Source: a virus
DNA: 35,713 nt
Direction: 5' to 3' (one strand)
IMG/VR virus record: IMGVR_UViG_3300044808_000083
Span: 1 to 35,713 of that record
Shown here in pieces: positions 3,924 through 33,496 of the stretch. The notes below the pieces were generated by a model that was given only the letters and a program-made list of their open reading frames with translations, made no database searches and had not been told where the DNA came from. The translations under genes and the position numbers were made by a program. Positions within the stretch are counted from its first letter, which is position 1, and every line of letters begins with the position of its first letter.

Positions 3924-4102
3924 TATAGCTCCCGCACTTCCACCTTCACTGCGCGCACGCCGTATTTGCGCCGCCACCAGTGCCACTTTTGCGTTGGATC
4001 AGATCCGAGAAATTGAGCGATCGACTCGCGCCGTGTCCCTTGTATGTAGGTGAGCCAGCCACTCCTGCTCTTTATCCCCCACATCCATCGCCGCGCTTTC
4101 AC
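3923..4102 (-). CDS. Small basic protein, GTG start
   Basis: A 59-residue basic, Trp-rich protein ending in WHWWRRKYGVRAVKVEVREL. The GTG start at 4102 has a strong Shine-Dalgarno sequence (AGGAGG, five bases upstream) and overlaps the J-domain gene stop by 4 bp (GTGA). The stop overlaps the next start (TAATG). Coupling at both ends makes it very likely real despite its size. The family is unknown; the basic, aromatic C-terminus would suit nucleic-acid binding. Confidence 0.65.
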   Translation of the reverse strand: MKARRWMWGIKSRSGWLTYIQGTRRESIAQFLGSDPTQKWHWWRRKYGVRAVKVEVREL

Positions 4103-4680
4103 TGTCCCCTCCTGGTTGCGAGCGCGATGTCTTTCGCCTGCGTTACCTGGACGAATGCTTCGCTCGAGCCGCCGCTATCCGGATGCGTTGCGCGCGCCTT
4201 GCGCCGATAGGCATCGAGGATCTGTTGCTCAGTCGCATCCTGGCTTATCTCGAGGATTTCCCAGCAGCTCGGGCCGGTCCGTTCCTCGAGCGCCATGTAA
4301 CCGGCGAAAGCTTGCTCGATTGAGCCGACGCCCCAGCGTTCCTGGCCGCGCAGCGCTTCGATGTGTTTCGTGATCGCGCGGATGTTGTCCTGAACGTGGC
4401 GCCATTTATCGCAGGCCAGGACCACACGCTTTTTGCCGAGTGTGAAATAGACCGCCACGCCCGGATCCCGTGGCTGAGGCTGTCCTCCGTGTGGCAATCC
4501 ATCGCGCCGCAGCGCCAGGTTTGAGGAGATCACCGGATTGGTGGCGCTGAGCCGGCGCAGCTCGGCGAGCACGTCCGCAACGCAACGAGCGATGGAAAAG
4601 TCCCCAAAGTTTGAGACGCGTTGAAAGCTGTTCCGCTTCCAGCTAAGCGGCCATTGCAGAGGGAATGCGTGCTCGCTCAT
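4099..4680 (-). CDS. J-domain (DnaJ-like) phage protein
   Basis: A 193-residue protein with a C-terminal J domain (residues about 138-190). It has the SCWEILEISQDAT opening, helix II (QQILDAYRRKARATH) and the HPD motif at 166-168 needed to stimulate DnaK ATPase. The N-terminal ~130 residues match no chaperone domain; they include VAVYFTLGKKRVVLACDKW and look like a separate domain. Phages use J proteins to recruit host DnaK for replication-complex remodelling (as lambda DnaJ/DnaK do) or virion assembly. Here the early position points to replication or host takeover. It is coupled by 4-bp overlaps to its neighbours. Confidence 0.8.
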   Translation of the reverse strand: MSEHAFPLQWPLSWKRNSFQRVSNFGDFSIARCVADVLAELRRLSATNPVISSNLALRRDGLPHGGQPQPRDPGVAVYFTLGKKRVVLACDKWRHVQDNIRAITKHIEALRGQERWGVGSIEQAFAGYMALEERTGPSCWEILEISQDATEQQILDAYRRKARATHPDSGGSSEAFVQVTQAKDIALATRRGQ

Positions 4681-6651: not shown

Positions 6652-6881
6652 CGCCGCGCCCTCCGGCTTTGTTTCGTTAAGGCCCGCTCGATCACGTCCG
6701 CGACCGGCCGCTCGCCCCAGCCCGATCCTTCGATGGAGCCGTTCTTTGTCTCAAAAACGAGCCGCGTCGCCCGGACGCCATCGCCACTTGTGAAAAGTTC
6801 TTTCGCGATTAGCCGGGCCAATCTGCGTTCGGCGTTGGGCGTTCGGCGTTGGACGTTGGACGTTTTCCCCGTCTTCCTCAT
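6648..6881 (-). CDS. Small early protein with repeat-encoded N-terminus
   Basis: A 77-residue protein. Residues about 6-19 (NVQRRTPNAER) are translated from the heptamer array at 6825-6866. The rest includes IAKELFTSGDGVRATRLVFE and a basic tail (TKQSRRARR). The start overlaps the MuB-like stop (ATGA). The ancestral start may have been further in, with the repeat later pulled into the frame. Confidence 0.5.
   Translation of the reverse strand: MRKTGKTSNVQRRTPNAERRLARLIAKELFTSGDGVRATRLVFETKNGSIEGSGWGERPVADVIERALTKQSRRARR
6825..6866. repeat. Heptamer array (gcgttcg/gcgttgg/acgttgg)
   Basis: Six consecutive 7-bp units of the form RcgttSg or similar, with no spacer. It lies inside the 5' end of the coding region at 6648-6881. 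Its unit differs from the other arrays but the period is the same. Confidence 0.9.
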
Positions 6882-7984
6882 GACTCGCCTCCCAGCTTCT
6901 TCACGATGTCGTGCGCCTGGACGAAGTGATCCCAGGTGAACCGCTCCTTCTTCCCGCGCGCCAGGTTCTGACCGCTTTCCAGGAAGAGCACGTAACGCTT
7001 GAATCCGTGATCCTTCGTTACCTCCTGCACGATCTCCGCCGCGAGGCCGCTCGGATCGTCCAGGTGGAAGTGCGCCGCGATCGCTTTCAGGTCCTTCTTC
7101 GGGAGGGCGCTCGGCAGCTGCACCTCGAGGATCCCGCGCTCTTTGAATTGCGCCAGCAAGTCAAGGTGCTGCCCCATCATCAGCTCCTCCTTCAGCTTTT
7201 GCGTGCCGAAGAGAACCATCCCGCAGCCGCGCCGGTCGTGGATCTCCCGGATCACCTCGAGACACTTGATCGCGCTGCCGCGCTGGTAGCTCAGGAACAC
7301 CTCGTGCAGCTCGTCCACCAGCAGTAGGTGCGTCTCGTCGATCGCGTTCAGCACATACTCGCGCAGGTTCTCGAAGCAGCTGTTCGGGTTTACGAAACAG
7401 GCGCGCGCAAATTCCTTCATCATCAGCTGCACGCCCGCGCTCGCCGGCAGCCGCACATACTTCGTCTTGCCGTGGTTGTTCACCGGCTGCGCCATGTAGG
7501 CCAGCTGCGCGTCGCTCTTGCCGATATGCGTCCGGCCGTAGACGAACGCCATCGTGCGCGTGCTCCTCGCGAAATCGCACGCCGCCCAGATCTTCTTGCT
7601 GATCGACGTCGGCACGAACAGCTTCCCGGTCCGCTGGCTTACGTCCTGGAACTTGTTCCGGTAAGCCGCGATCCGCGCCACGATGCTGTCCAGCTTCGCC
7701 GCGTAGGTGCCGCGAAAGACACGGAAGAGCGTGCTGTCATCGATGCCCGTCTCCGTCTCGAGCCGGGCGAGGGACCAATGCCGATGTTTCGCGAGCGAGA
7801 ACAGCCAGCGGATCGTTTCCCGCTGGTCCTCCGGCAGCTCCGCCGTCGCCTGGATAACTTCGTCGCCTCCCAGTCGGATCACTTGCGCCTCGTCGCCGTT
7901 GCGTGCGGGGACGATGGTGCGGCCGTGATTTTCGTCCGGCTCTTCGTTAGGCGAAGTCTTCTGCTCGGTAGGTGTTTTCGGCAT
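6878..7984 (-). CDS. MuB-like AAA+ ATPase (transposition target selector)
   Basis: A 368-residue protein. Residues about 55-120 form an HTH-like N-terminal domain (LARLETETGIDDSTLFRVF). The ATPase core has Walker A GRTHIGKS (150-157) and Walker B LLLVDELHE (D224, E225), with a FGT sensor-type strand further on. In Mu, MuB coats target DNA as ATP-dependent filaments and delivers it to MuA. The start at 7984 is preferred (AGGA upstream, modest overlap with the transposase). An in-frame start at 8041 would give 387 residues. It lies directly downstream of the transposase, as in Mu. Bacterial TniB/ExeA-type ATPases are relatives, but the context favours MuB. Confidence 0.85.
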   Translation of the reverse strand: MPKTPTEQKTSPNEEPDENHGRTIVPARNGDEAQVIRLGGDEVIQATAELPEDQRETIRWLFSLAKHRHWSLARLETETGIDDSTLFRVFRGTYAAKLDSIVARIAAYRNKFQDVSQRTGKLFVPTSISKKIWAACDFARSTRTMAFVYGRTHIGKSDAQLAYMAQPVNNHGKTKYVRLPASAGVQLMMKEFARACFVNPNSCFENLREYVLNAIDETHLLLVDELHEVFLSYQRGSAIKCLEVIREIHDRRGCGMVLFGTQKLKEELMMGQHLDLLAQFKERGILEVQLPSALPKKDLKAIAAHFHLDDPSGLAAEIVQEVTKDHGFKRYVLFLESGQNLARGKKERFTWDHFVQAHDIVKKLGGES

Positions 7985-9875
7985 GGTTTGGTCCTGTGCT
8001 GTAGAGAGCGGCGAGACCTTCTCCGTCGTCGTCCGCCTCATCTGGTGGCGATGCTTCCGCAGGGTCCAACTGCGGTGGTGGCATCAAGTCTTCGATGGAT
8101 CCGCGCTCAGCTCTGAGCCGGGTGCGATCGCGCGTGGAGATCGCTTTTTCTTCTGCTGTGAAAGGTTTCGTTAGGTCGATGGCTCGCGCATTGTTCAGGT
8201 GCATCGCGCGCTTCTTCTGCGCCTGGCCCATCGCCCGCCGGCGCAGGGGCGCCAGCATCTCCGCCTCGATTTTTGCCGCGCGGCCGCACGATTCATGCAG
8301 CGCCTGGACATTGCTTCTGCAAACGCTCTGCAGCCGGTCCAGCGTCGCCACATAGCGGCCCTTCGCGTCGAAGCAGGTCAGCCGGCGCGTGTCGAACGGA
8401 TTCAGCACCGTCAAATATTTCCCGCGCGGTGGCAGCTGATGCGCATCGAACCGGAGCGGATCGCCGCTGATCTCGCTGTTCTTCAGCTCGATCATTCCAT
8501 TCCGGATTTGCCGCTCTTTCCCGTTCGCGGTCCCAATGATCAGCGCCGCCGTCTCCGGGCTGATCGTCTGCAGGGCACGCCGGCCCTGGTTCCAAAATTC
8601 TGCCGGCGACATCCGCCGCATCCGGCCAGTCGCGCGATCCGGCACGTAACGTTCGTCCCAGCCCTCCAGGTCGTGCTCCGTCCGCGCGTTGATCCGCGCG
8701 TAGAGCTCCTGCAGCACCACCTTGAATTGCTGGAGCGAACAGAGCGGCCATTGGATCCACTCGATCCGCTCCGGAGGCAGCTGCGAAAGAGCCAGGAGAA
8801 GCGCGTCGTTATGCTTCCGCAGCCCGTGCTGTTCCTCGGGGCAATGCTGCCGGTCCTTCCCGGTTTGCCCTGGCAGATAGGCCAGCTCGTTGTGAATCAG
8901 GTTGCCGAGCGACTCGAGCGCCGCCTTGATCCGGAAATTCCCTTTGCTCCGGCCGGCGTATTGCCCCGCGTGCGCCGCGGCGCCTTGCATTCCGCCCAGC
9001 TCGAATTTGATCGCGCCATTCGTCGCGCGCGTGATCAGCCATTGCAGCTCCTCCGGGATTGTCGTCGTTCCGTGCTCGAGCACGATCGTCGTCCCGCGCG
9101 GATGATAGCCATCGGTGAAAAGCGAGCCCGCCAGCAGAAACCGGAAGTCCGCGGTCTTCAGCGATTCATGGACGCCGTCCACTTCGCGCCGCACGCGCAC
9201 GCCCCAGCAGTGTTTGTAACCCGACGCCAGATCCAGCCCGTGAAATTCCAGCGGCCGGCCGCGCTGCTGCGTCGCCAGCAGATTTACTTCGTGATCGTGC
9301 CAGATGTCGTCGTAGAGAAAATATTGGCCTACGTAGAGATCGCGCCGTGTCGTGTAAACCAGCGGCCGATGCCCCGCCGCGGCCGAGCGCCCTTCCCGCG
9401 CCGCCTTTAGTTCAAACTCGCTCGGCGCGTAGCGCGCCAGGTTGCGCTTGCTCCATCCGCGCGGATAACCGGTCTGCACATCGAGCGGCTTGTCCGTCTC
9501 CACCTCGCCCTTCTTCCAGGCCCGGCGCAGCGCATCGAGCGCCGCTTCGTTGTTGCGCTGGTAACGCTCGCAATACGTCTTCACCAGCTCCTGGTCCGCG
9601 TGCGAAAGCCCGATCCGTTCCTCCACGTTCCAGAACTCGGGGCCGGCCGCCCGCCGATCGATGAGGCCTGCGAATCCGCACTCGAGATAACGATAAAACT
9701 TTTTCGCGACCGTCTTGAACGGCACGTCATGCTTGTCCGCCAGCGCCTGCAGCGCCGCCACGCGTCCCTTCTTTTGGGCCTCGAGCGGGATGAACCGCTT
9801 CTCCCAATCCAGCGCGTCCTTCTGGATCGCCTCCGGAAGTGACGCGAGCAGCTCAGTGGAAATTTCGTGTGACAT
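7947..9875 (-). CDS. Mu-type DDE transposase (MuA-like, rve core)
   Basis: A 642-residue protein, close to MuA (663). Residues 1-75 look like an HTH region (KHDVPFKTVAKKFYRYLE). The integrase-like core spans about 180-345, with candidate acids D190 (FLYDDIWHD), E267 (VLEHGT) and E321 (ALESLGN). Spacings of 77 and 54 compare with 67 and 56 in MuA (D269, D336, E392). The middle acid appears to be Glu, not Asp. After the core come a beta-barrel-like region (about 400-520) and an acidic, disordered tail (DEADDDGEG) that could contact MuB. It would catalyse end cleavage and strand transfer for integration and replicative transposition. Upstream and downstream gene boundaries are tight. Confidence 0.9.
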   Translation of the reverse strand: MSHEISTELLASLPEAIQKDALDWEKRFIPLEAQKKGRVAALQALADKHDVPFKTVAKKFYRYLECGFAGLIDRRAAGPEFWNVEERIGLSHADQELVKTYCERYQRNNEAALDALRRAWKKGEVETDKPLDVQTGYPRGWSKRNLARYAPSEFELKAAREGRSAAAGHRPLVYTTRRDLYVGQYFLYDDIWHDHEVNLLATQQRGRPLEFHGLDLASGYKHCWGVRVRREVDGVHESLKTADFRFLLAGSLFTDGYHPRGTTIVLEHGTTTIPEELQWLITRATNGAIKFELGGMQGAAAHAGQYAGRSKGNFRIKAALESLGNLIHNELAYLPGQTGKDRQHCPEEQHGLRKHNDALLLALSQLPPERIEWIQWPLCSLQQFKVVLQELYARINARTEHDLEGWDERYVPDRATGRMRRMSPAEFWNQGRRALQTISPETAALIIGTANGKERQIRNGMIELKNSEISGDPLRFDAHQLPPRGKYLTVLNPFDTRRLTCFDAKGRYVATLDRLQSVCRSNVQALHESCGRAAKIEAEMLAPLRRRAMGQAQKKRAMHLNNARAIDLTKPFTAEEKAISTRDRTRLRAERGSIEDLMPPPQLDPAEASPPDEADDDGEGLAALYSTGPNHAENTYRAEDFA

Positions 9876-16403: not shown

Positions 16404-16915
16404 GCACTTTTCCCTTCTTCGATTCGGCGTTCGGCCTTTTCCTCGCCGACACCCTTGATCGCGTCACCCCCGGCATGATTGGCTGGGCCGTCATCGGCCT
16501 CATCTCGGCCCTCACCGTTGTCGCCCTCGTCCTCACCGTCCTTAACCAGGGCAAACGATTCTTCGGCCGTCAGCCCTCTTTGAATCAGGTCCTCGCCGGC
16601 CTCGTCTCCGTCGTCGCCTGGGACGATTACAAACAAGAGCAGCACCTCCGGCATCGCGGCCTCGAGGAACAGATCTCCAAAGTCCGCCACGATACCGACG
16701 AGCGCTTCAACGCTGATCTCGTCCGCGTCGAAAAGGTATTTGGCGAGATCTTCAAGCGCAGCGAAGAGCGCGATCGCGCCATCGATAATCTCGCTCACGT
16801 CGTGAGCCGTCTCCAGGAGCGCACCGAAACCCACGTCCGCAATTTCGATTCTCTCTTCACTAAGATCGACAACCTCCTCCGCGACGTCAATCTCGCCCGC
16901 CGCGCCGGAAAATGA
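16400..16915 (+). CDS. DUF2730-like membrane coiled-coil protein (Mu gp25-like)
   Basis: A 171-residue protein. It has one membrane helix (about 27-46, WAVIGLISALTVVALVLTV), then a long coiled coil (about 75-165; HLRHRGLEEQISKVRHDTDERF, then heptad-like repeats). This matches DUF2730 proteins such as Mu gp25, found just upstream of the terminase genes. The function is unknown. The start at 16400 overlaps the endolysin stop (ATGA). Confidence 0.65.
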   Translation: MSTFPFFDSAFGLFLADTLDRVTPGMIGWAVIGLISALTVVALVLTVLNQGKRFFGRQPSLNQVLAGLVSVVAWDDYKQEQHLRHRGLEEQISKVRHDTDERFNADLVRVEKVFGEIFKRSEERDRAIDNLAHVVSRLQERTETHVRNFDSLFTKIDNLLRDVNLARRAGK

Positions 16916-17184
16916 TGACCGCCGAAGACAAAGAGATGATGCAGGAAAAAATCCTGCAGCTCTGCAATGCGGCCGGGAAGTTCGGCATCCCCGACGACCG
17001 GATCCTGCGCACGCTCAACAAGGCCGGCTACGCGATCGACCAGGCCGAGCTCGATCGGCAGCTGCGGTATCTCAAGAGCAAAGGCTTCATCGCCGAAGCC
17101 GGCAAAGTCTTGCGTCCGGATCTCCGCCGCTGGGAAACCACCGCAGCCGGCGACGAATACCTCATGCAGCAGGGCCTGGTCTGA
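16912..17184 (+). CDS. Winged-helix protein (Mu gp26-like position)
   Basis: A 90-residue protein with a winged-helix pattern: helix 1 (EKILQLCNAAGKF), helices 2-3 (PDDRILRTLNKAGY, DQAELDRQLRYLKSKGFI) and a wing (RRWETTAAGDEYL). It starts 4 bp inside the previous gene. Mu gp26 occupies the same slot before the small terminase. The DNA target is not known. Confidence 0.6.
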   Translation: MMTAEDKEMMQEKILQLCNAAGKFGIPDDRILRTLNKAGYAIDQAELDRQLRYLKSKGFIAEAGKVLRPDLRRWETTAAGDEYLMQQGLV

Positions 17185-17376
17185 ATGAGCGCTTTCCCTG
17201 GCAGCGAAGACTACGAGCCCGAGAGCAGCCCCGTCCGTGAGCTGACCCTTCTCGAGCAGATCGAGTATTGGAAAGCGCGCGCCCGCCTCGCCGAGGAATG
17301 CGCCCACGCTAACCTCGAGCGCGTCGCCGACATCGAGGATGTAGACCCCGCTGACTTCTGGAAACGCGAATCATGA
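17185..17376 (+). CDS. Small acidic protein
   Basis: A 63-residue acidic protein with a helical centre (LLEQIEYWKARARLAEECAH). It starts immediately after the previous stop and overlaps the next start (ATGA). The family is not recognised. Confidence 0.6.
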   Translation: MSAFPGSEDYEPESSPVRELTLLEQIEYWKARARLAEECAHANLERVADIEDVDPADFWKRES

Positions 17377-17513
17377 AGCCATCCGTCGCCTTCGTCCTAT
17401 TGGTCGCATCGGCCGTTTCCGCGGCTGGAGACAGCTTTTTCGCTTCCCGCGCTATTCCTGGCCCATTTCCGGCCCGTTGCAGGCCAATTTTGAAGGCATC
17501 CCGACTCGTATGA
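17373..17513 (+). CDS. Small secreted-type peptide, coupled at both ends
   Basis: A 46-residue protein with a signal-peptide-like start (a Lys, then hydrophobic VAFVLLVASAVSA followed by AGDS) and a short basic remainder. The start at 17373 overlaps the previous stop (ATGA) and the stop at 17513 overlaps the small-terminase ATG (ATGA). This exact coupling supports it as real despite its size. The role is unknown. Confidence 0.5.
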   Translation: MKPSVAFVLLVASAVSAAGDSFFASRAIPGPFPARCRPILKASRLV

Positions 17514-18091
17514 GCTCCGACCGTAACAAGATCGCCCAGGAACTCACCGTCGAGCAGTTGTCGGATTTCGTCGGACAGCTCGCCGCGCTCCCTGGCAAAG
17601 ACCGCACCCTGTCCGCGATCAAAGAGCGCGCGGCCGCGCTCGGCATCGAGATCTCCCTCATGTCCGCGAAGGCCTTTCGCGACACCACCTTTGAAAGGCA
17701 CCTGCAGCGCATGCGCACCGCCCAGGAAGTCGCCCTGCAGGTTGAAGGAATAGAGCAGGGCGGCAACACCCTGGCCAGCGCTTCCGCCAAGCTTCTCAGC
17801 AAACGCATCTTCAATCAGCTGCTCGAGGCCGAGGAAAACGACGAAGCCGGCGTCGACGTCGACGCGCTCAGTCTTTCCATCTCCCGCCTCCGCTCCGGCG
17901 ACGTCGCCACCGCTACGCATCAGCTTAAGATCCAGGCGCTCGAGCTCGCGCAGTTCAACGCCGCCGAGCAGGCCCTGAAACACGCGCGCGAGCTCAAGAC
18001 CATCTCGGAAAACAAATCGCTCGATGAGAAAGAAAAGATCGAGCGCGTCCGGCTGAAACTTTTCGGACCAGCTCCGGAGGCTCCCAAATGA
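17510..18091 (+). CDS. Small terminase-like protein (DUF3486-like)
   Basis: A 193-residue helical protein. It has an N-terminal HTH-like region (about 10-60; TVEQLSDFVGQLAAL, IKERAAALGIEIS) and a long helical body, then a basic C-terminus. It corresponds to Mu gp27/DUF3486, the DNA-recognition subunit of the terminase. The start at 17510 is supported by the ATGA overlap with the small upstream gene; an in-frame ATG at 17477 is less likely. Confidence 0.7.
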   Translation: MSSDRNKIAQELTVEQLSDFVGQLAALPGKDRTLSAIKERAAALGIEISLMSAKAFRDTTFERHLQRMRTAQEVALQVEGIEQGGNTLASASAKLLSKRIFNQLLEAEENDEAGVDVDALSLSISRLRSGDVATATHQLKIQALELAQFNAAEQALKHARELKTISENKSLDEKEKIERVRLKLFGPAPEAPK

Positions 18092-18258
18092 GCGCAGCGA
18101 ATTTTCCTGCTCCTGCTCGTGATCGTGCTCCTGATCGATTGCTTAAGCAGTTAGGTCAGCTCACGCAATTTTACCGTTACATGCTCGTGTTCTATGCCGG
18201 CATGCTGTGCGGAACCCTGATTTTCGTGGCCTGCTATTTCTGGACCGGAGGGAAGTGA
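18088..18258 (+). CDS. Small membrane protein between terminase subunits
   Basis: A 56-residue protein. The N-terminus (residues 1-22) comes from an imperfect tandem run (gctcctgctcgtgatcg-type), and one membrane helix spans about 32-52 (MLVFYAGMLCGTLIFVACYF). The start overlaps the small-terminase stop (ATGA) and the stop overlaps the TerL GTG. The function is unknown. Confidence 0.55.
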   Translation: MSAANFPAPARDRAPDRLLKQLGQLTQFYRYMLVFYAGMLCGTLIFVACYFWTGGK

Positions 18259-19748
18259 ACGCGATCGTCGAAGACATTGCGGAGATCGCGCCGCCTGGCT
18301 CGGAGCCGCTCGTTCCGTTCCGGAATTATCAGCAGCCCGTCTTCTGGGATCACATCACCAAGACGCTCATCCTTCATTGGTCCCGCCAGATCGGAAAGAG
18401 CTACACGCTCGCCGGCTGGGCCGTCGATCGCTTGCTTCGTTATCCCGGCCGCCTGGTCACCGTTCTTTCCAATTCGCGCGATAACGGTGCCGAGTTCGTA
18501 ATCAAGTGCCAGGAGGTTTGCCAGAAACTCGGCCAGGCCATCGAGGTCGAGGATCTCTCGCGCGACATCTCCTACGATGAGATGCGCTTCGAGATCAAGA
18601 TCACCGTCGGCGATCGCACCGGCCGCATAAAAGTCCTGGCGGCGAATCCCCGCACAGCTCGCGGCTTTTCCGGCGATCTCATCCTGGATGAGTTCGCTTT
18701 CCACGAAAACAGCCGCGCCATCTGGGAAGCCGCCGAGCCGATCATCTCCGCGAACAAGGATTTCCTGTGCCGCATCGCCAGCACCGGCAACGGCCGCACC
18801 AACATGTTCTATCAGCTCATCAGCGAAGGCCGGATCCCGCTTAACCGGATGCGCCGCTCGGAAGCCTGGCGCATGGGCGAGCTGAAAATCTATTCCGCGA
18901 TCGACGGCCGCGAGATCACGCCGGATGAAGCGCGCGCCGAGTCGAGCGACAAACGTGCCTACGATCAGAACTACGAGTGCGCCTTCGAAGATGAGAACAT
19001 GCCGCTTCTCACCCAGGAGCTCATAAGCGCCGCCGAGCGTTCGCTCATTTCCATCGATCGCCAGCAGTGGAGCGAAGTTTCACTTGCGCGCATGCACCGC
19101 GCGGAAGGCGAGATCTTTCTCGGCCAGGATTTTGCGCGCACCCAGGATCTTTCAGTCCAGGCCGTTCTCGAGATCGTCGGCAATCTGAAGCGCACCGTCG
19201 GCCTTCTTGTCATGACGAACACGCGCACGCCGGCGCAGCTCGCCCAGCTCGCCTTCGTCGCGCAGCTGCCGAAGTTCCGCAAAGCCTCGCTCGACATGAC
19301 GGGTAATGGCCTCGGCCTTTTCGAATTCGCAGAGGACGCGGAGTGGGGCGGGCCCGATCGCATCGAAGGCGTCAACTTCTCTTCCACTGAGCCCGTGAGC
19401 GATCTCATCCGCACGCAGGGCCGCAAGGCGCCCACCGCGCGCGTCACCGAGATAATGGCCACTAACCTCGTCGCCGTCTTCGAAGATCGCGCCATCGAGA
19501 TCCCGGCCGATCCGGAATTGCGCGACGACTTGCGCAAGCCGGAGAAAATCGTTTCGCCTGGCGGCCGCGTCTCCATCGCCGCGGCTCGAGACGCCGCCGG
19601 CCATGCCGATTTCTTCTGGGCCTATGCGCTGGCAAATCGCGCCAGCGAAACAGTCGGCACCGTTGGCACCTTCTTTCCGTTCGGCGATCGGCAATCTTCC
19701 GGATCCTCTCGTTCGGAGCTCCGTCACTCGAGAAAACTATTGGGATGA
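18255..19748 (+). CDS. Terminase large subunit (Mu gp28-like)
   Basis: A 497-residue protein. The ATPase domain has Walker A SRQIGKSYT (about 43-51) and Walker B LILDE (D145, E146). The RNase H-like nuclease domain has candidate acids D292 (GQDFART), D347 (SLDMTGNG) and D452 (GHADFFWA). It would power DNA translocation and cut concatemeric or integrated DNA, as expected for Mu-like headful packaging. The GTG start at 18255 has a strong Shine-Dalgarno sequence (GGAGGG) and a 4-bp GTGA overlap; the upstream ATG at 18207 lies within the previous gene. Confidence 0.9.
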   Translation: MNAIVEDIAEIAPPGSEPLVPFRNYQQPVFWDHITKTLILHWSRQIGKSYTLAGWAVDRLLRYPGRLVTVLSNSRDNGAEFVIKCQEVCQKLGQAIEVEDLSRDISYDEMRFEIKITVGDRTGRIKVLAANPRTARGFSGDLILDEFAFHENSRAIWEAAEPIISANKDFLCRIASTGNGRTNMFYQLISEGRIPLNRMRRSEAWRMGELKIYSAIDGREITPDEARAESSDKRAYDQNYECAFEDENMPLLTQELISAAERSLISIDRQQWSEVSLARMHRAEGEIFLGQDFARTQDLSVQAVLEIVGNLKRTVGLLVMTNTRTPAQLAQLAFVAQLPKFRKASLDMTGNGLGLFEFAEDAEWGGPDRIEGVNFSSTEPVSDLIRTQGRKAPTARVTEIMATNLVAVFEDRAIEIPADPELRDDLRKPEKIVSPGGRVSIAAARDAAGHADFFWAYALANRASETVGTVGTFFPFGDRQSSGSSRSELRHSRKLLG

Positions 19749-20050
19749 GCACTTCTCTCTTAATCCCGGATCCTCCCACTCCGCCGAAGCGGCTCATCAA
19801 AGTCGTTGGTGGGATCGCGGCTTACGCACTCTGCGATGACGGAAAGATTCGTAAGGTCAGGCTTCAGCAAGGCCAGGCCCGCAAGCTCCATAATTTCGTG
19901 AAGCACAATCTCTGCGGCGGAGTGATGAAGCTCTCCTTCGAAAGTTGCCAGATCGTCGCCGACCAGCAGCCTCCCTGCCCTGGCTTCTGGTTCCGGCTCC
20001 GCCAAAAACTCTCCGGCTTCCGTTTCCCGAATCTGAAATCTGCAATCTGA
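19745..20050 (+). CDS. Small protein between terminase and portal
   Basis: A 101-residue protein that starts 4 bp inside the TerL gene. Residues about 17-65 are a compact mixed region (LIKVVGGIAAYALCDDGKIRK, KLHNFVKHNLC) with Cys residues; the C-terminal ~20 residues (FRFPNLKSAI) are largely encoded by the heptamer array. I do not recognise the family. Confidence 0.5.
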   Translation: MSTSLLIPDPPTPPKRLIKVVGGIAAYALCDDGKIRKVRLQQGQARKLHNFVKHNLCGGVMKLSFESCQIVADQQPPCPGFWFRLRQKLSGFRFPNLKSAI

Positions 20051-20058
20051 AATCTGCA
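20031..20058. repeat. Heptamer array (atctgMa) before portal
   Basis: Four units alternating atctgaa and atctgca. The last unit ends directly before the portal ATG at 20059, so the usual Shine-Dalgarno position is repeat sequence. Confidence 0.95.
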
Positions 20059-21582
20059 ATGCTCTCCTCCTTCCAACTCGACCAGATCAACCCCCTCCGC
20101 GGCCTTGACCAGGCTGGTCTCATCGCGCTGCAGGAAAACGCCATGCGCGGCTACTACGCCCGGCTCATGTGGACCTATTTCTTCTTCGAGAAAAAACATC
20201 CCATGGTCCGCGCCGTGAAACGCCGCCTCCTCTCTTCGTTAGGCTCGCTGAAGTGGGACATCAAACTCGCCGACGTCGGCGAAGACTCCGAGAAAAAGGC
20301 TATCGCTGAGCGCCAGGCCCAGACGTTGCGCGCTGCTTATGACGCGATCGCGAATCTGCGCGACGCACTGAACTTCCTGGCGCTCGGCGAGCTCCGCGGC
20401 TTTTCCCACCTCGAGAAAATCTACCGCCGCGGCGCTCCTCAATCTGCAATCGGCAATCTGAAATCTGCAATCGATCACGACCCCTGGGACGTGATCGAGC
20501 TCCGCCCAGTCGAGCAATGGTTCTGGTGTCGGCAAGGTTTCTACGGCGCCTGGCTCTACAACAAAGAGGCGCGCGAAGTGAACACCGGCGCCGCGATCGA
20601 TCCTGCTCACTTCGTCATTCACACGGTGCAAGATCCGGCCGATGAGATCTTCGCTGAATACGCCATCAAATCGAAAGTGAACGACGCCGATTGGGACGGC
20701 TTCCTCGAGGATTACGGCGTGCCGCCGCTCTTCTTCGGCATGCCGCCAAACGTCCCGGCGTCAAAGGAGGCTCTCTACCAGCAGCAGGCCGAGCTCACGG
20801 TCTCGCGGGCCCGCGGCGCCGTGCCGCATGGCACCACTCTCCTTTCTCCCAGCGCCACCGGATCCGGCGGCGCCGGCGTTTTCTCCGAGCGCCTCAAATA
20901 CATCGACGAGCAAATAGTTATCGCCGGCACATCCGGAAAGCTCACCGTCATTGCCGAATCCGGATCCGGCACTCTCGCCGGCGGCGCGCAGAAAGAAGCG
21001 TTCGACGAAATCGCCCAGGCTATCGCCGATGAAATTTCCGGCGTAATGCAAAAGCAATTCGATCTCCCTCTTCTCAAGCGCACGCATCCCGACGAGCCGG
21101 TCCTCGCTTACTTCGAGTTCGCGGCCGTCGACGAAGAAGAGAGCGGCAAAGTCCTGGAAGATGCCGGCAAAGCGAAGGACGCCGGCTTCATCATGGACGC
21201 TGCCGAGCTCAGCGAAAAGACCGGCTACAAGCTGACGCCTCTGCCGCCATCCGGAAGTCAGAAGTCAGAAGTCAGAGGTCAGCCCTCTTCTGCTTCGCCG
21301 ACCTCCGATCTCCGACCTCCGATCTCCAGCGCGCCGGCGCCGGATCCCGAACAAATCAACGCCCTCTTCAGTTCTGCCGTGCAGCAGCTCGCCGAAGCAG
21401 AGGCCGCCGATCTCGAACCGCTTCGCCGCGCCCTCGAGTCAGCTGTCGCCGATCCCACTCCCGAAAAACTGCAGGCCCTGCTCGATCAACTTGCCGAGAT
21501 CCAATCCCAGCTCGGCATTCGCGCGGCCGAAGTCCGCCAAAACATTCTCGGCACCGCGCTCGTCACCGGCCTCACGACATAG
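20059..21582 (+). CDS. Portal protein (DUF935, Mu gp29-like)
   Basis: A 507-residue protein. The portal pattern of Mu gp29/DUF935 is present: GYYARLMWTYFFFEKKHPMVRAVKRRLLSSL, the VGEDSEKKAIAERQAQTL helix, DPWDVIELRPVEQWFW, GFLEDYGVPPLFFGMP and a long tail. It would form the 12-fold DNA gate at the head vertex. The ATG at 20059 is chosen because everything upstream overlaps the previous gene. Residues about 128-139 and 399-423 (SEVRGQ, TSDLRPP) are encoded by repeat arrays inserted in frame, so these loops must be tolerated by the fold. Confidence 0.85.
   Translation: MLSSFQLDQINPLRGLDQAGLIALQENAMRGYYARLMWTYFFFEKKHPMVRAVKRRLLSSLGSLKWDIKLADVGEDSEKKAIAERQAQTLRAAYDAIANLRDALNFLALGELRGFSHLEKIYRRGAPQSAIGNLKSAIDHDPWDVIELRPVEQWFWCRQGFYGAWLYNKEAREVNTGAAIDPAHFVIHTVQDPADEIFAEYAIKSKVNDADWDGFLEDYGVPPLFFGMPPNVPASKEALYQQQAELTVSRARGAVPHGTTLLSPSATGSGGAGVFSERLKYIDEQIVIAGTSGKLTVIAESGSGTLAGGAQKEAFDEIAQAIADEISGVMQKQFDLPLLKRTHPDEPVLAYFEFAAVDEEESGKVLEDAGKAKDAGFIMDAAELSEKTGYKLTPLPPSGSQKSEVRGQPSSASPTSDLRPPISSAPAPDPEQINALFSSAVQQLAEAEAADLEPLRRALESAVADPTPEKLQALLDQLAEIQSQLGIRAAEVRQNILGTALVTGLTT
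20441..20475. repeat. Heptamer array inside portal gene (aatctgM)
   Basis: Five 7-bp units (aatctgc, aatcggc, aatctga, aatctgc, aatcgat), encoding residues about 128-139 of the portal. The reading frame is preserved. Confidence 0.9.
21254..21281. repeat. Heptamer array inside portal gene (gaagtca)
   Basis: Three gaagtca units and one gaggtca, in frame in the C-terminal part of the portal gene. Confidence 0.9.
21299..21326. repeat. Heptamer array inside portal gene (cgacctc/cgatctc)
   Basis: Four 7-bp units alternating cgacctc and cgatctc, 17 bp after the gaagtca array and still inside the portal frame. Confidence 0.9.
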
Positions 21583-24730: not shown

Positions 24731-26206
24731 ATGAAATTCCAATATCGAATCCTTACTCTCTCGACCATCGCGGTCGCGGCCTTGTCGCTGGCCATGCCAG
24801 CACAAGCCGCTGAGCCTCCAGCGCCGCGCCAGGAACTCGCCATTACCAGCGTGGCCACCAATTCTGCGCCGGGCTCTCTGTCCATTACGAATCCGGCGCC
24901 GGCTGAATTCTCCGCCCAGCTAGCGCTCCTGGATCTCATTGGCTGGAGGGAGACAATGGTGTCGGCCGTGTTGCTCGCCTTCGCCGCCTGCGCCTTCCTC
25001 CCGAAATGCTATCGCAGCATCGGCGCCTTCATGCGTTACCTGGCGAAGCTCATGCGCGATCCGTTTGAGCGATTCTGTATGCGGTTGCGTTTCTTCCTCC
25101 GGTATCGCTTGGACAAGGAGCTCATCGTTAATCGAGCTCTTGCTATCGCGATCGTCGCCGCCTGCATCATGCTATTCGTCGCGCATCAACCGGTTGCGGC
25201 CCTGGTCGTATTGTTCGCCGCGCCTGCCTGCGCCGTCCTCGGCCGCCCGCAGCTCTGCGACACTGCCACAGGCAAACTCGCCGCCGTCACCTCTCAGCCG
25301 ATGGTTCGTGAATACGCCCAGGGCGCCGCGCAAGGCGCCATGGAGCAGCTCGCCGTCGCCAGCTTCCTCGCCCCGAATGTTCCCGTCGCCGGTATGATCG
25401 GCCGCTTCAAGCGTTACAATCAGAAGCATCGGTTCCGTCTCCCGAAAACGCGGCGCGTTCTCGGCGGCGCCGCAACCCAGATCGGTTTCACTGCCGATGA
25501 TGCTCTTTATCAGGCGAACGCCAACGCACTCGATTTCCCGATCGACAATCTTGAGAAGCTCGAGGGCGCGGAGTTGGTCAATGTCGTCAACGAAGCCTCC
25601 GACATGGTCTCGGAAGTCGCCGCGCTGGCGTGGGAAAGTGAAGTCGTCAATGCGGGACTTGCCGCACTCGGCAACGGCACGGATCTCACCTGGGATGCCG
25701 GGACCGATCCCGTTCGCGCGCTCGACAACATCATTCTCGCCACCCTCAAGGCCGCGAAGAGTGGCTCCATGATGGGAGTTCGCGTCCTCTTCGGCGCCAC
25801 CGCCTGGTTGATCTTCAAGAATCACCCGAAAGTCACCGGCAAATTCACCAACAATCCGAAGGGCGGCACCAATCCGCAGGTCACCAGGCCGATGGCCAGC
25901 TCGCTCTTGCTCACCGAGCCGGAAATCCAGACGACCTACTCGGTCTATGACACCGCCCCGGAAGGCGTCTCCGAGTCGATCTCGTTCCTGCTCGATTCGA
26001 AGATCATCGTTTTCGCCTGCAAGCCGAAGCCCACCCGACTCGATCCGAGCTTCATGAAGACCTTCGCGCCGCGCGGTCAGTTCATGGTGCCGGGCACCTA
26101 CCCGCTGCAGGATCAGCGCGGCGAGGTCGTGAAATTCGACTGGAACTGCGTCGCCGAGGTCACCAACGAAGACGCCGGCACGCTTCTCAACATCGCCGAA
26201 TCATAG
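24731..26206 (+). CDS. Major capsid protein with N-terminal signal and membrane domain
   Basis: A 491-residue protein. Residues about 190-491 match the major-capsid pattern of Mu-like/HK97-type phages (YNQKHRFRLPKTRRVLGG, DYPIDNLEKLEG-like segment, KAAKSGSMMGVRVLFG, a TYSVYDTAPEGVSESISF strand) and have the usual ~300-residue length. The first ~190 residues are unexpected: a Sec signal peptide (about 8-26, AxA at about 24-26), hydrophobic segments at about 77-91, 136-151 and 154-170, and a basic stretch (FERFCMRLRFFLRYRLDKE). The frame has no stop. An internal start at 25301 has no Shine-Dalgarno sequence. A late hairpin flanks each side. Confidence 0.8.
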   Translation: MKFQYRILTLSTIAVAALSLAMPAQAAEPPAPRQELAITSVATNSAPGSLSITNPAPAEFSAQLALLDLIGWRETMVSAVLLAFAACAFLPKCYRSIGAFMRYLAKLMRDPFERFCMRLRFFLRYRLDKELIVNRALAIAIVAACIMLFVAHQPVAALVVLFAAPACAVLGRPQLCDTATGKLAAVTSQPMVREYAQGAAQGAMEQLAVASFLAPNVPVAGMIGRFKRYNQKHRFRLPKTRRVLGGAATQIGFTADDALYQANANALDFPIDNLEKLEGAELVNVVNEASDMVSEVAALAWESEVVNAGLAALGNGTDLTWDAGTDPVRALDNIILATLKAAKSGSMMGVRVLFGATAWLIFKNHPKVTGKFTNNPKGGTNPQVTRPMASSLLLTEPEIQTTYSVYDTAPEGVSESISFLLDSKIIVFACKPKPTRLDPSFMKTFAPRGQFMVPGTYPLQDQRGEVVKFDWNCVAEVTNEDAGTLLNIAES

Positions 26207-26310: not shown

Positions 26311-27054
26311 ATGAAATCACAAAATCTCATCACAGCTGCTGTAGTGGCGGTCGCTTCGGCCGCTGTGTTCCTCCCATCGGTCCGCGCCGCCGATGATCTC
26401 ACTGACACGAACGTCTACCGAAAAGGGACGAACACGATCGCAGCGCTTCGTGCGATCGAGGTTTCACCTGGGGTCCACGCTCCCACCTTTGTCCTGGTGG
26501 ACGAGAACGGCGATCCCGTTGGCCTCACCGCGGCTCAGCCGGCCGGAGAAAATCACATCGGCGAGGTCGGCGGGAGAACCGCCGTCCCAAGCGCGAACTT
26601 TACGCGTCCGAGTGATACCACCGCTTATGCCTCCGGCGACCTGGTCGCCAACAGCACCACCGCCGGCTCCGTTGCGCCGCTCTCGTGGACCGCGGCGCGA
26701 GTAGCGGCCGGAAGCGGAATGATCCGGCGCGCCCGCATCAAAACGAGCAGCACGAACGTAACGAACGCCTCCTTCCGGCTGCATCTTTACAAGGCTTCGC
26801 CCACTCCTTCGAACGGCGACAACGGCGCCTGGCTTACGAATCAGTCGGCTAACTACCTTGGATCCCTCGACATCACGGTGGACCGGGCCTTCACCGATGG
26901 CGCCACCGGCAACGGCACACCGAACATCGGCACCGAAATTAACTTCGCGCTCTCGAGCGGCCAGACCATCTACGGACTCCTGGAGGCGCGCGGAGCTTAC
27001 ACACCCACCAGTGCCGGCACCTTCACGGTCGAACTCGAGATCTTGCAGAACTGA
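26311..27054 (+). CDS. Structural-type protein with signal peptide
   Basis: A 247-residue protein. A signal peptide (residues 1-26, hydrophobic ITAAVVAVASAAVFL, cleavage after VRA) precedes ADDLTDTNVY. From about 90 to the end the sequence (FTRPSDTTAYASGDLVANSTTAGS, then MIRRARIK and NASFRLHLYKASP) matches a domain I know from phage structural genes near the capsid. Usually that domain has no signal peptide. Its likely role is decoration or fibre attachment. The stop overlaps the next start by one base. Confidence 0.65.
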   Translation: MKSQNLITAAVVAVASAAVFLPSVRAADDLTDTNVYRKGTNTIAALRAIEVSPGVHAPTFVLVDENGDPVGLTAAQPAGENHIGEVGGRTAVPSANFTRPSDTTAYASGDLVANSTTAGSVAPLSWTAARVAAGSGMIRRARIKTSSTNVTNASFRLHLYKASPTPSNGDNGAWLTNQSANYLGSLDITVDRAFTDGATGNGTPNIGTEINFALSSGQTIYGLLEARGAYTPTSAGTFTVELEILQN

Positions 27055-28526
27055 TGCTGCGACTCATTTCCATCCTGGCTTGCGTAATCGCGCTGACTGC
27101 CTCCGCGCAGGTCACCACGCGCAGCGTCGCGGTCCGCTCCGGTAGTTCCACGGACCCGGATGCGCTCGCCTGGAAACGCAACATCAACGCCGCGGGCAGC
27201 ACGGTGTCGGCAACCACACTCGCGGCGGTCTCGACCTTCGTGAAGGGATGCAAGGCCGACAACATCTGGTCGAAGATGCTCGACGTCGGCGTGTTCGCCG
27301 GCGCGGACCTGACTGCCGCGCTCGTAAAGCTGAAAAGCCTGAGCGGAACAAGTTACACGAACAGCGGTCCTTTCGTGAGTGGCGACTACTCCGAAACGAC
27401 GGGACTGAAGGGGAACGGTTCGTCGAAGTATCTCCGCACCGGCGTTGTGCCATCCACGATGCTCACGCTGAATAGCACGCATCTCGCGATCTATGATCGC
27501 TTCGTTATGACTACCGCGGTCGGCGCGGGCGGGATCGGAGCGATCGGCGCGCGCAATCCCTCCGCTGACGTGCTCAGGCTATATCACCCCTACAGCGACC
27601 GGGTCTATTACTCCGACGCTTACAACGCCTCTACTGCCCGAGTGAGCAGCGCCGTCGCGGCTTTCGGGCCGATCGGATTCGTGCTCGCCAGCAGGAACGG
27701 CGCTGCCTCCAATAAGGTATACGTCAACGCCGGACAGATAGCTACAGGCACAACCGCGGCCGGTTCATTACCCACCGTAGAAATATACATCGGTGCCTAT
27801 AATAATCAGGGAAGTTTTGCCGAGCCAGGGTCCCGGCCTTTTAGCTTTGCCAGCATCGGCGAGGGGCTTTCAGCGGGCGAGGTAACAAGCCTCAACACCA
27901 GGGTCCACAATTTGCAGCGCGCGCTGAATCGCGCGCTGAAGCATGTCGTTTTCGAGGGTGACTCGCGCACTAACGGAAATGGCGCGGCGATCCCTTACCC
28001 CACGTTGGTGGGAACGGCCCTCGGGCAGCCACCGCTCTTTGTGCATAACTTCTCCGTCTCGAGCGCTACAATCTCGGGCGGCTCAACTCCCGCAAATTCG
28101 CTTACCTCCAGGGCGGCGACCGTCAATGCGACGTTCAGCACGTTGCTCTACAACGCCGATGTATTCATGGCGCTGGCCGGTCACAACGACCTGGACCAAG
28201 GAGACAGCGCGGCCACTGCCTTCGCGGAATACAAGGCGTATTACCAGGCGCTCCGGACGGCGGCGCCCTGGGTGAAGCTGATTGCTGCTACGGAGCCGCC
28301 GAGCACGAAAGCCGGAATCAACGCCAAGCGGAACGCCTTTAATACGCTGGTCCGCGATGATCCCTCCTTTTACGACGCCCTTTGTGACATCGGAGGGGAT
28401 CCCGTGATGGGGCCGGACGCCGCAGCTTCCGACACTAACCTCTACTACGACGGCACGCACCTCACGCAGACCGGCCAGAACAACATAGCCGTGCTGGTGC
28501 AGGCCGTTGTCCAGGGGCAGCTCTAG
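27054..28526 (+). CDS. Secreted SGNH/GDSL hydrolase with lectin-like N-terminus
   Basis: A 490-residue protein. A signal peptide (residues 1-18, LISILACVIALTASA, cleavage before Q) precedes a ~250-residue strand-rich region with a LamG/concanavalin-like feel (TLNSTHLAIYDRFVM, VYVNAGQIATG). The C-terminal SGNH domain has GDSR (Ser304), GHND (N378) and DGTH (D466, H469). Such enzymes deacetylate or de-esterify surface polysaccharides and are often on phage tail spikes. Here it lies between capsid and connector genes, which is unusual. Codon use is less GC-rich in parts, suggesting exchange. Confidence 0.75.
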   Translation: MLRLISILACVIALTASAQVTTRSVAVRSGSSTDPDALAWKRNINAAGSTVSATTLAAVSTFVKGCKADNIWSKMLDVGVFAGADLTAALVKLKSLSGTSYTNSGPFVSGDYSETTGLKGNGSSKYLRTGVVPSTMLTLNSTHLAIYDRFVMTTAVGAGGIGAIGARNPSADVLRLYHPYSDRVYYSDAYNASTARVSSAVAAFGPIGFVLASRNGAASNKVYVNAGQIATGTTAAGSLPTVEIYIGAYNNQGSFAEPGSRPFSFASIGEGLSAGEVTSLNTRVHNLQRALNRALKHVVFEGDSRTNGNGAAIPYPTLVGTALGQPPLFVHNFSVSSATISGGSTPANSLTSRAATVNATFSTLLYNADVFMALAGHNDLDQGDSAATAFAEYKAYYQALRTAAPWVKLIAATEPPSTKAGINAKRNAFNTLVRDDPSFYDALCDIGGDPVMGPDAAASDTNLYYDGTHLTQTGQNNIAVLVQAVVQGQL

Positions 28527-28588: not shown

Positions 28589-29041
28589 ATGCCCCGCTGG
28601 ATCCCCATCACCGTCGACGATCTGAACGACTCCAAAGTCGCTGCGCTCGTCACCGCGCTCCGGACCGCCGCTCTCGCTGATGACCAGGACGATCCAACGC
28701 CGCGTCTCACCCAGGCCGTCGTCAACCGGATCCGGCGCAAGATCGCCAGTAACCCGCAGAACCAGCTCGACGAAGACGTCACCACCATCCCGGAAGGCCT
28801 CAAGCTCATGGCCGTCGATCTCATCATCGCCGAGCTCAAGGGCCGCCTCGAGGAAGGGCTGACGGATGACGAACGACGGAAGATTGATCGCCACGAGACC
28901 GACCTGAACCGCATCGCCGCCGGCACCGACACGATTGAGGATCCCGACACCGCGATCGACGCTCCCGTCCAGGACCAGAGCGGCACTCCCTCCATCACCA
29001 CCGATCGCCGCGGCGATCTCAATCGCGCGAGGGGACTATGA
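28589..29041 (+). CDS. Head-tail connector (gp36/DUF1320-like)
   Basis: A 150-residue protein. The helical first ~100 residues (LNDSKVAALVTALRTAAL, AVVNRIRRKIAS, LKLMAVDLIIAELKGR) match DUF1320/Mu gp36 and related adaptors, which join portal and tail. The tail is acidic and likely disordered. It is followed directly by a long repeat array. Confidence 0.7.
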   Translation: MPRWIPITVDDLNDSKVAALVTALRTAALADDQDDPTPRLTQAVVNRIRRKIASNPQNQLDEDVTTIPEGLKLMAVDLIIAELKGRLEEGLTDDERRKIDRHETDLNRIAAGTDTIEDPDTAIDAPVQDQSGTPSITTDRRGDLNRARGL

Positions 29042-31642: not shown

Positions 31643-33496
31643 ATGGCCGACAAAAACTTCGAGATCCGGATCACCACGCCGGCCGACACCACTGGCGTCG
31701 GCAAAACCAAGGCCGATCTCGCGTCTCTCGAGACTCAGGCCATCAAGACCGGCGCCGCCGTCAACCGCGCCACTGGATCCGGGATCCTTCCCGGCCGGGC
31801 CGAACCTTCCGCGGCCGAGCTCGAGCGTCGCTTCCGCGAAGGCCCCATCGGCGGTGGCGGTCCTTCCGCGCCGCCACCTGGGCCCGGTGGCGCGGGCTCC
31901 ATCGGCGGTTTCGCCGGCGCCGCCATCGCCGCGACGGCTCTCTATAACACTCTCTCCGAGATCTCCGCCGAGCACGAGCGCATCGAGAAAGAGATCCTTA
32001 AACAGAACGAAGGCCTCAACAAACAGATCGGGGCCTGGAAAGAAATCGCCCGCGAAGCTCGTGATGCCGGCGACGTCACGGGCCTTGCCGAGAAGATGCT
32101 TCCGCAGCTCGACGCTGCATCCGCAAAGCTGCGCGAGGTCCATGCCCAGGAGCTCACCTGGTTCCAGTCGATCAAGGAATCGCTTCTCACTGTCTCCACT
32201 TACGTAGGCTCCGGCGGCGTCGAAGCCTGGACGCCTTACACCGACAACCTCCAGGCTGCGATCACCGCCCAGGAGCAATTCAAACAGACCGTCGTCGCGT
32301 CGACTGGCGAAATGATCCAGGCCGCTCAATCCGCAGAGGCCGCCTGGGCCCGCGTCCAGATGCGGCCGCTCGCTGATGGCGTCGCCGAATACACCGCCAG
32401 GGTCGCTGCCCTGAAAAATATTCTGGCTGGTCTCGACAAGTCCACCGAGGAAGGCCAGCGCGCCTTTGTCGACTACGGCAAGATGCTCGACGACGCGACG
32501 GAGAAGCTAAAGCTCCTCACCACCGCCCAATCGAAGCTCACCGAGGAAAGCTCCAAACTCGAGGCTGAGCTCAACAAAATAAACTTCGAGAAGCTCGCGC
32601 CCGAGGATCAGGTCAAGGAGCTCACCAACGACATCTACAGCGCCAGTGAAAAGCTTCGCCAGCTGGGAATCGAGTCCGGCACCGTCAAAGATGCCTTTGA
32701 CGCCACCAAAGGGGTGACGAGTGCGTGGGCGGTCGAAGTGCGCGAAGTCGCCCTCGAGATGGCGCGCCTCCAGGGCAACGTCGACAAGACAAACAAATCC
32801 ATCTCCGACAACGCCGCGAAATCCGCTGAGACCTCAGCCAAAGAAAAGCAGCGTGCCGCAGAAGCTATTTCCGCAATCCAGCAGGCCACCGCGATCGAGA
32901 AAGCCCGTCTTTCCGGCAATGATGAACTCGCCGCGAAGCTCGAGCGCCAGCGCGATCTCCAGCAGGCCATCAACAACCTCATTGCCGCCGGCGTCTCCGC
33001 CGAGCAGGCCAAAGCCCTCGCCATCGAGCATCAAAACACGAAGCTTGCTCAGCAGGAAGCTCAGCAGGACGCCGCCGCTGCCAAAGCAGCAGCAGACGGC
33101 AAATCCAAACACTTCGACCTTTCCGGCCGCGACATCACCGAGGATCCATTCGATTCGGCCGGCAAACTTTCCCGCACTCATCACTCCGATCTCGACGAGC
33201 TCGAACGCGGCGATCGCGCCTTCCGCAAACGCTTCGAGCCCCCCGGCCAGCGTGATCGCGGCCCTCAGGACGCCGGCGGCAAAGGCGACGGCGAAGCGGC
33301 CGGCGCCCTGAAAGAAACAGGCGACAAAGTCGGCGGCGAAGCCCAGAAGATCGAAGCCGCAGTCAAAGATATGGAAGGCAAGATCGTCGGCGGCCTCGGC
33401 CAGGTTTCCAGCGCCATCCAGTCGGCCGGCGCCAACATCGAGGCCCGCTTCACCGCCATCGAAGGCGAGATCTCGAACCTCTGGGCCGCCATATGA
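31643..33496 (+). CDS. Tape measure protein
   Basis: A 617-residue protein. Its N-terminus (FEIRITTPADTTGVGKTKADLASLETQAI) is typical, followed by a Gly/Pro-rich segment and a hydrophobic stretch (about 90-108, IGGFAGAAIAATALYNTL), then long coiled coils (about 110-480) and an acidic, Ala-rich end. It would set tail length, about 90 nm by the usual 1.5 angstrom per residue rule, and it travels through the tail into the host membrane. No peptidoglycan hydrolase motif is seen. It starts four bases after the previous stop. Confidence 0.85.
   Translation: MADKNFEIRITTPADTTGVGKTKADLASLETQAIKTGAAVNRATGSGILPGRAEPSAAELERRFREGPIGGGGPSAPPPGPGGAGSIGGFAGAAIAATALYNTLSEISAEHERIEKEILKQNEGLNKQIGAWKEIAREARDAGDVTGLAEKMLPQLDAASAKLREVHAQELTWFQSIKESLLTVSTYVGSGGVEAWTPYTDNLQAAITAQEQFKQTVVASTGEMIQAAQSAEAAWARVQMRPLADGVAEYTARVAALKNILAGLDKSTEEGQRAFVDYGKMLDDATEKLKLLTTAQSKLTEESSKLEAELNKINFEKLAPEDQVKELTNDIYSASEKLRQLGIESGTVKDAFDATKGVTSAWAVEVREVALEMARLQGNVDKTNKSISDNAAKSAETSAKEKQRAAEAISAIQQATAIEKARLSGNDELAAKLERQRDLQQAINNLIAAGVSAEQAKALAIEHQNTKLAQQEAQQDAAAAKAAADGKSKHFDLSGRDITEDPFDSAGKLSRTHHSDLDELERGDRAFRKRFEPPGQRDRGPQDAGGKGDGEAAGALKETGDKVGGEAQKIEAAVKDMEGKIVGGLGQVSSAIQSAGANIEARFTAIEGEISNLWAAI

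Follow-up and report, generated by a model that had tools for sequence, protein, structure and literature searches.

A predicted lectin-SGNH esterase with a signal-peptide-like N-terminus beside the capsid gene of a Mu-like phage: a candidate virion protein

Phage proteins that join an esterase for surface glycans to binding parts have been described in several systems. Receptor-binding proteins with SGNH domains are frequent in Klebsiella prophages, two of them being confirmed esterases, and gp63.1 of coliphage G7C is cited as a deacetylase (both in the portions consulted of PMC13123978). The gp55 tail spike of Pectobacterium phage PP99 deacetylates O-polysaccharide (PMC6989608). The protein analyzed here resembles these three cases in that a predicted glycan esterase is coupled to binding parts. 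It differs from them in that the G7C, Klebsiella and PP99 enzymes are tail fibres or a tail spike, whereas its gene lies near the gene of the major capsid protein (MCP) and starts with a predicted signal peptide. Virion enzymes deacetylating surface glycans are already known, and the element added here is the recurrence of signal peptides on virion-type genes.

Tailed phages normally complete their particles in the cytoplasm. Our literature search, with subscription papers and preprints outside its scope, returned no description of a tailed phage whose structural proteins have signal peptides, nor is there one in the portions consulted of PMC6199706, PMC8143477, PMC4642752, PMC5723332, PMC3426561 and PMC9319048. 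Within those portions, the target proteins of phage DGRs are without signal peptides (PMC6199706), two Bacteroides phages have two and one signal peptides, not tied to structural genes (PMC5723332), and the verrucomicrobial phage P8625 has none according to SignalP (PMC4642752).

The window, a virus record 35,713 bases long, appears from its gene content to derive from a Mu-like phage. On the minus strand it encodes a MuB/TniB-like AAA ATPase (6878..8041; PF13401, E 4e-11; PF05621, E 1.3e-4) and a presumed transposase (7947-9875), named for its position beside the MuB-like gene and giving no Pfam match at E 0.01. The early region also holds a gene for a DnaJ-domain protein (4099-4680, minus strand; PF00226, E 3.4e-9). 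On the plus strand follow the large terminase (18207..19748; PF03237, E 9.7e-12), a Mu-type portal protein (20059..21582 from its ATG start; PF06074, E 5.6e-31 on the ORF 19945-21582), the MCP (24731..26206; phrog_1005, E 3.7e-22), two genes with predicted signal peptides (26311..27054 and 27054..28526), a protein weakly matching head-tail adaptors (28589..29041; phrog_132, E 0.071) and a tape-measure-like protein (31643..33496; phrog_2335, E 2.4e-4). The record ends at 35713 exactly on a stop codon; it was therefore probably cut at a gene border, and tail-spike genes may lie beyond. A second viral contig of 10 kb (L002) carries the gene 27054-28526 at 100% identity.

The MCP shares 66% identity with that of viral contig L011 and with that of L024, a prophage in a Spartobacteria MAG that provides the closest capsid relative of known host. 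Since, in addition, the capsid model finds matches at E <= 0.001 in 33 of 387 genomes of Verrucomicrobiota, the host is probably a bacterium of this phylum. In contig L011, a small protein with a signal peptide is encoded just upstream of the capsid gene (9258-9806) and has a K1-lyase C-terminal domain (PF24146, E 4.8e-10).

The gene under study (27054..28526, plus strand) encodes a 490-amino-acid protein recognized from its ORF, its motifs and Pfam and PHROG profiles. As the first-pass annotation had it, the gene is placed in the head cluster, between the MCP gene and the weakly adaptor-like gene. The same annotation called this location unusual, a view that we reject because the slot between MCP and head-tail adaptor holds hypothetical, accessory genes in Mu (gp35), B3 (ORF39), RcapMu (43-44) and D3112 (36-37), and because relatives of the preceding gene 26311 also follow the major head protein in three other contigs (L014, L016 and L019). 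The ATG overlaps the stop codon of gene 26311 (TGATG); the further in-frame start codons (codons 51, 63 and 75) fall within the lectin domain, and there is none earlier. The N-terminus reads MLRLISILACVIALTASA, then Q, which corresponds to a basic n-region, an apolar core and an AxA-type site, with a predicted cut after ASA (residues 1-18, 27054..27107). With this supported start and a score of 5.35, the signal peptide noticed at first pass is retained. The rule behind the score is a heuristic of our own, not SignalP; it asks for a basic n-region, an apolar core, an AxA-like site and a score of at least 3.5.

The SGNH hydrolase domain spans residues 302-475 (27957..28478; PF13472, E 3.5e-13; bit score 50.9, cut-off 32.9). 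The GDSR (302-305), GHND (376-379) and DGTH (466-469) motifs are all present as first described, with the block I catalytic Ser304 (27963-27965), the GxND Asn378 of block III (28185-28187) and the block V DxxH residues Asp466 (28449-28451) and His469 (28458-28460), all on the plus strand. In the region of the block II Gly (oxyanion hole), compared by eye, NFSVSS stands against NQGTPG in the relative L094, so that the Gly looks replaced by Ser, in a stretch where the pairwise alignment is loose. The tail-fiber family phrog_5240 is touched weakly (E 0.0068). When PDB sequences were searched, the SGNH part gave no match at E 10, and the lectin and SGNH part of the relative L134 only 1yzf (E 0.14); no useful family was obtained from NCBIfam. 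The domain match supports well a putative esterase acting on polysaccharide, an action on surface glycans being predicted because known SGNH receptor-binding proteins do so.

The lectin-like character that had been suspected for the N-terminal part is borne out by phrog_17104, which matches residues 27-295 at E 2.4e-19, and by the structure model, together with Foldseek and VIA matches: residues of about 31-295 (27144..27938) are modelled as a jelly-roll of the LamG/ConA kind. The AlphaFold2 prediction, which the first-pass annotation had proposed as a check, has a pTM of 0.69 and was informative for the lectin, with block-mean pLDDT of 84-97 for residues 31-130 and 47-91 for residues 151-290, and poor for the SGNH part (block means of 37-65). 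The 50 best structural matches listed have Z of 14.3-16.1. PDB entries among them are 5hon, a GH43 arabinanase domain (Z 14.7, rmsd 3.1 over 188 residues), and, at the top, clostridial neurotoxin binding domains (Z as high as 16.1, with an rmsd of 3.1 over 211 residues), a likeness that we take as a common jelly-roll lectin subdomain. Among the viral structural matches, LamG/ConA phage proteins are numerous.

The lectin module recurs at 46 loci in viral contigs, the window's own phage excluded, which form 33 clusters at 90% identity. At 45 of these the frame ends within about 265 residues of the module start (two being cut by the contig end), leaving no room for an SGNH domain. In the 43 lectin-only relatives whose 5' end is intact, no start codon ahead of the module gives a signal peptide; the two others of the 45 are cut at the 5' end. 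At six loci the match extends into the following frame, which encodes a second module copy, also without a signal peptide; five more contigs (L003-L007) have the module alone and without one, and in L095 it belongs to a 931-amino-acid protein, again without signal peptide. The sole locus of the 46 to combine module, SGNH domain (E 1.4e-17) and signal peptide is L134, with a protein of 805 amino acids whose signal-peptide start is an internal ATG at codon 50 of the open frame, overlapping the end of the preceding gene; a longer start would be without signal peptide.

A similar protein, L094, was found in genome G102 of the presumed host phylum. It has 1011 amino acids, a signal peptide and an SGNH domain (E 1.2e-17) matching the tail-fiber family phrog_5240 at E 1.2e-8. 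We read its N-terminus as fibre-type and its gene as lying between portal-like and capsid-like genes. L094 and L134 share 33% identity over 579 columns, and the window protein shares 35% over 110 columns with L094 and 31% over 289 with L134. A signal peptide is thus found in all three lectin-SGNH proteins (window, L094 and L134), and in the latter two the homologous lectin-SGNH module is contained in longer proteins with fibre features. The whole window protein has matches in 11 of the 387 genomes of the phylum, all weak, the best being L094 (E 1.0e-9), and the L134 protein in seven of 387, again with L094 of G102 first (E 1.6e-53), indicating that the architecture is rare in that phylum. A scan of viral contigs with the SGNH part of L134 returned only its own contig.

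The gene between those of the MCP and the SGNH protein (26311..27054, plus strand) has a predicted signal peptide as well. Its 247-amino-acid product comprises the signal peptide (1-26), a linker and a beta jelly-roll (about 87-247) of a weakly cement-like phage family, GTG codons 12 and 19 permitting a shorter start. None of 11 relatives of the C-terminal jelly-roll in viral contigs, the window's own phage excluded, has a signal-peptide start. These relatives lie two to five genes after the major head protein in L014 and L016 (both phrog_1328) and in L019 (phrog_283); the relative is followed in L014 by a virion structural protein (phrog_2941), and the gene after it in L019 matches the virion structural family phrog_10356 at E 2.4e-26. 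By our reading the gene order is similar in L022 and L023, and no head genes were recognized around the relatives in L013 and L017. Relatives also occur in Caulobacter and Rhizobium phages (28 records); the gene contexts given here are those of the viral contigs just named. The model of the 26311 product is confident only from about residue 87. It shows a weak likeness to 7eel_H of cyanophage Pam1 (Z 6.9, rmsd 3.7 over 110 residues), which we take to be the capsid cement protein of that phage, and to 7dou of Helicobacter phage KHP40 (Z 6.0, rmsd 4.5 over 112), values under Z 8 that may reflect merely the common jelly-roll; most entries in the list are unrelated virus coat proteins. The signal peptide sets the 26311 product apart from the Pam1 and KHP40 cement proteins. 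From these gene contexts and the weak cement likeness, the pair 26311 and 27054 looks like a cassette of head or neck accessory genes that has gained signal peptides.

The MCP itself has an N-terminal extension of 190 amino acids before its capsid domain (about 25313-26191). The start of this extension (24731-24808) passes the signal-peptide rule with a score of 5.15 and is followed by three further hydrophobic segments. The ATG at 24731 is our choice, the frame being open further upstream. Since its codon-position GC (0.62/0.49/0.74) is like that of neighbouring genes, the extension (24731-25300) is probably translated. In prophage L024 the hydrophobic extension of the MCP is shorter (score 3.5), and seven further MCP genes, all distinct, have their called start right before the capsid domain. 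When the long extension was searched for, the only match was the second contig of the window phage.

We surveyed signal peptides around related capsid genes at 30 loci, a subset of all matches consisting of 28 regions around MCP matches, L024 and the window. Among the eight genes that follow the capsid gene, 35 of 224 have a signal peptide, against two of 147 upstream, one of these being the L024 gene just before the MCP (one-sided Fisher p = 9e-7). In the control phages Mu, B3, RcapMu, D3112 and P8625, the figures are 0/40 for the same positions (p = 0.002), 0/83 for all downstream genes and 1/30 upstream. Loci of the same genome are not independent in these counts, a small number of the downstream genes may belong to the host, and the automatic gene calls are noisy. 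At least one signal-peptide gene occurs in 19 of the 30 loci (16 of 24 genomes or records); with 11 loci having none at these positions, the trait is not universal. As a wider baseline, nine of 552 distinct genes in 64 other phage contigs have a signal peptide, several of them resembling membrane or lysis proteins and two being fibre-like or secreted-like proteins (L113, 1288-2937; L023, 2416-3015).

These counts bear on whether the 27054 product is an ordinary cytoplasmic late protein with a falsely called signal peptide. The caller is home-made, which would favour such an error, yet shuffled N-termini of the downstream genes reach 3.5 in just 45 of 4480 cases (1.0%), so that a chance signal peptide was rejected, and the rule is passed as well by the adjacent gene, by the MCP extension and by the two other lectin-SGNH proteins. 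We regard a false call as very unlikely.

Some of the downstream genes have recognizable products: one signal-peptide gene of L090 encodes a tail collar fibre (phrog_523, E 1.6e-28), and one of L024, at 16778-17908, a virion structural protein (phrog_6002, E 2.7e-10); several others near capsid genes have no PHROG match. Of 12 small downstream genes compared by BLAST, eight form one family of 120 amino acids. Its signal peptide is present in L071, L073, L074, L075 and L076 and missing in the G082 prophages L067-L069, the two groups sharing 26-53% identity in the remaining part. L085 and L093 are mutually related and faintly similar to this family, L072 and L079 to none; a second neighbouring family is split in a like manner, judged by eye. 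Genome G082, whose family members are those without signal peptide, has four capsid-gene matches, of which three (L067, L068 and L069) were fetched.

In L071 (10257-19185, minus strand), L073 (623-10878, plus strand) and L076, from two genomes, clusters with portal and protease (by PHROG), MCP and a probable connector are followed by three genes with signal peptides and one for a small membrane protein. In L071 apparent host genes come after the signal-peptide genes, with no tail gene among eight proteins scanned, which raises the question whether such clusters are tailless or minimal-tail elements.

The occurrence of orthologous 120-amino-acid genes with and without a signal peptide indicates that the mature part does not need it. 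This agrees with a reading of the 27054 product as a virion adhesin-esterase whose N-terminus does not serve export, being either an uncleaved anchor or a recombination leftover from host secreted proteins; host-like signal-peptide and collar proteins could have donated the hydrophobic stretch. Against it, the n/h/c pattern and the AxA-type site are kept in diverged relatives, and the downstream rate is about ten times the upstream one, and likewise about ten times those of shuffled N-termini and of other phage contigs. An idle N-terminus therefore seems distinctly unlikely to us.

The first-pass annotation had also suggested that a secreted form could strip surface polysaccharide from the host or its neighbours. 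The part of this proposal concerning an esterase on polysaccharide stands, from the domain and the known SGNH receptor-binding proteins. A free secreted enzyme comes second, both because two longer proteins with fibre features contain the module and because signal peptides mark several virion-type genes of these phages, a tail collar fibre among them, the MCP itself bearing a membrane-type extension. Such a non-virion enzyme, exported by lysogenic conversion or late expression, would deacetylate the host's own surface polysaccharide and thereby destroy the receptor, which would prevent the adsorption of progeny or of rival phages. It would account for a signal peptide on an SGNH protein, and comparable cases could be found in the phylum, where a survey of phrog_523 tail-collar matches (43 genomes with a match) gave signal peptides in seven of the 30 loci examined. 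Some of these seven proteins we judged to be host secreted ones, which blurs that phylum-wide test. The start of the gene overlaps the upstream stop within a run of late genes, which argues against a separate transcription unit; with the fibre-like and virion-type contexts just given, this makes a non-virion enzyme rather unlikely, if by no means negligible.

We thus prefer, tentatively and with a little less than even confidence, to consider 27054-28526 as the gene of a virion adhesin-esterase routed through Sec, and its signal peptide seems to us more consistent with the routing of virion proteins than with a free enzyme. From the genes, domains, active-site residues and signal-peptide-like N-termini observed, and from the recurrence of the latter on virion-type genes of related phages, we infer the following course. 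The proteins of 27054 and of 26311, the latter a cement- or lectin-like jelly-roll, would form a two-gene cassette. Unlike the usual phage SGNH enzymes, both would carry Sec signal peptides when synthesized and, once exported through the inner membrane and cleaved, would remain in the periplasm. They would be added to the capsids at or after lysis, the capsids themselves being perhaps tethered to the inner membrane through the hydrophobic MCP extension. During adsorption, the jelly-roll domain of the 27054 product would bind host-surface polysaccharide and the SGNH domain would strip ester groups, probably acetyl, from it. Export itself counts against a place in the virion, since an exported protein is cut off from the capsids until lysis. 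Possible purposes of export are folding, keeping the lectin from nascent glycans and removal of the receptor from the producing cell.

A broader proposal, conceivable and on balance doubtful, is that one group of tailed phages infecting Verrucomicrobiota sends part of the virion through Sec and the inner membrane and finishes its particles outside the cytoplasm. If so, adhesins, cement-like jelly-rolls and tail fibres would bear cleavable signal peptides, and the capsid protein of the window phage and of L024 would be membrane-targeted. This would contradict the textbook view of tailed phages and would mean that one common group of soil and water bacteria hosts tailed phages with an unrecognized step of assembly or surface display. 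Virus annotation may take such signal-peptide genes for host secreted proteins and so cut prophages short.

Among described phages, RcapMu, likewise Mu-like, has a DUF303 tail protein (gp56), a family that we take to be SGNH-type acetylesterases. Unlike the window gene, gp56 lies at the tail end of the genome according to the annotation, and the genes downstream of the RcapMu MCP gave no signal-peptide call, in contrast to those of the window phage. The N-terminal module is held in common with stand-alone jelly-roll proteins of cyanophages S-CBS4 (gp056), S-SRP02 (p008) and Mwe-JY13, at 29-53% identity over matched pieces covering 13-44% of the query. In Mwe-JY13 it is encoded immediately behind the portal gene, and in S-CBS4 some genes beyond annotated tail-fiber genes. 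In the viral contigs with related modules the protein differs from ours in ending directly after the module, before any SGNH domain, and those with an intact 5' end are without signal peptide. A probable counterpart with both parts is A0A6J5QGC8 of an uncultured Caudovirales phage, annotated as SGNH_hydrolase domain containing. It differs in its length of 1172 amino acids and in a loose overall fit (rmsd 11.8), but Foldseek aligns 523 columns with the window protein, suggesting that the lectin and SGNH parts are probably both common to the two.
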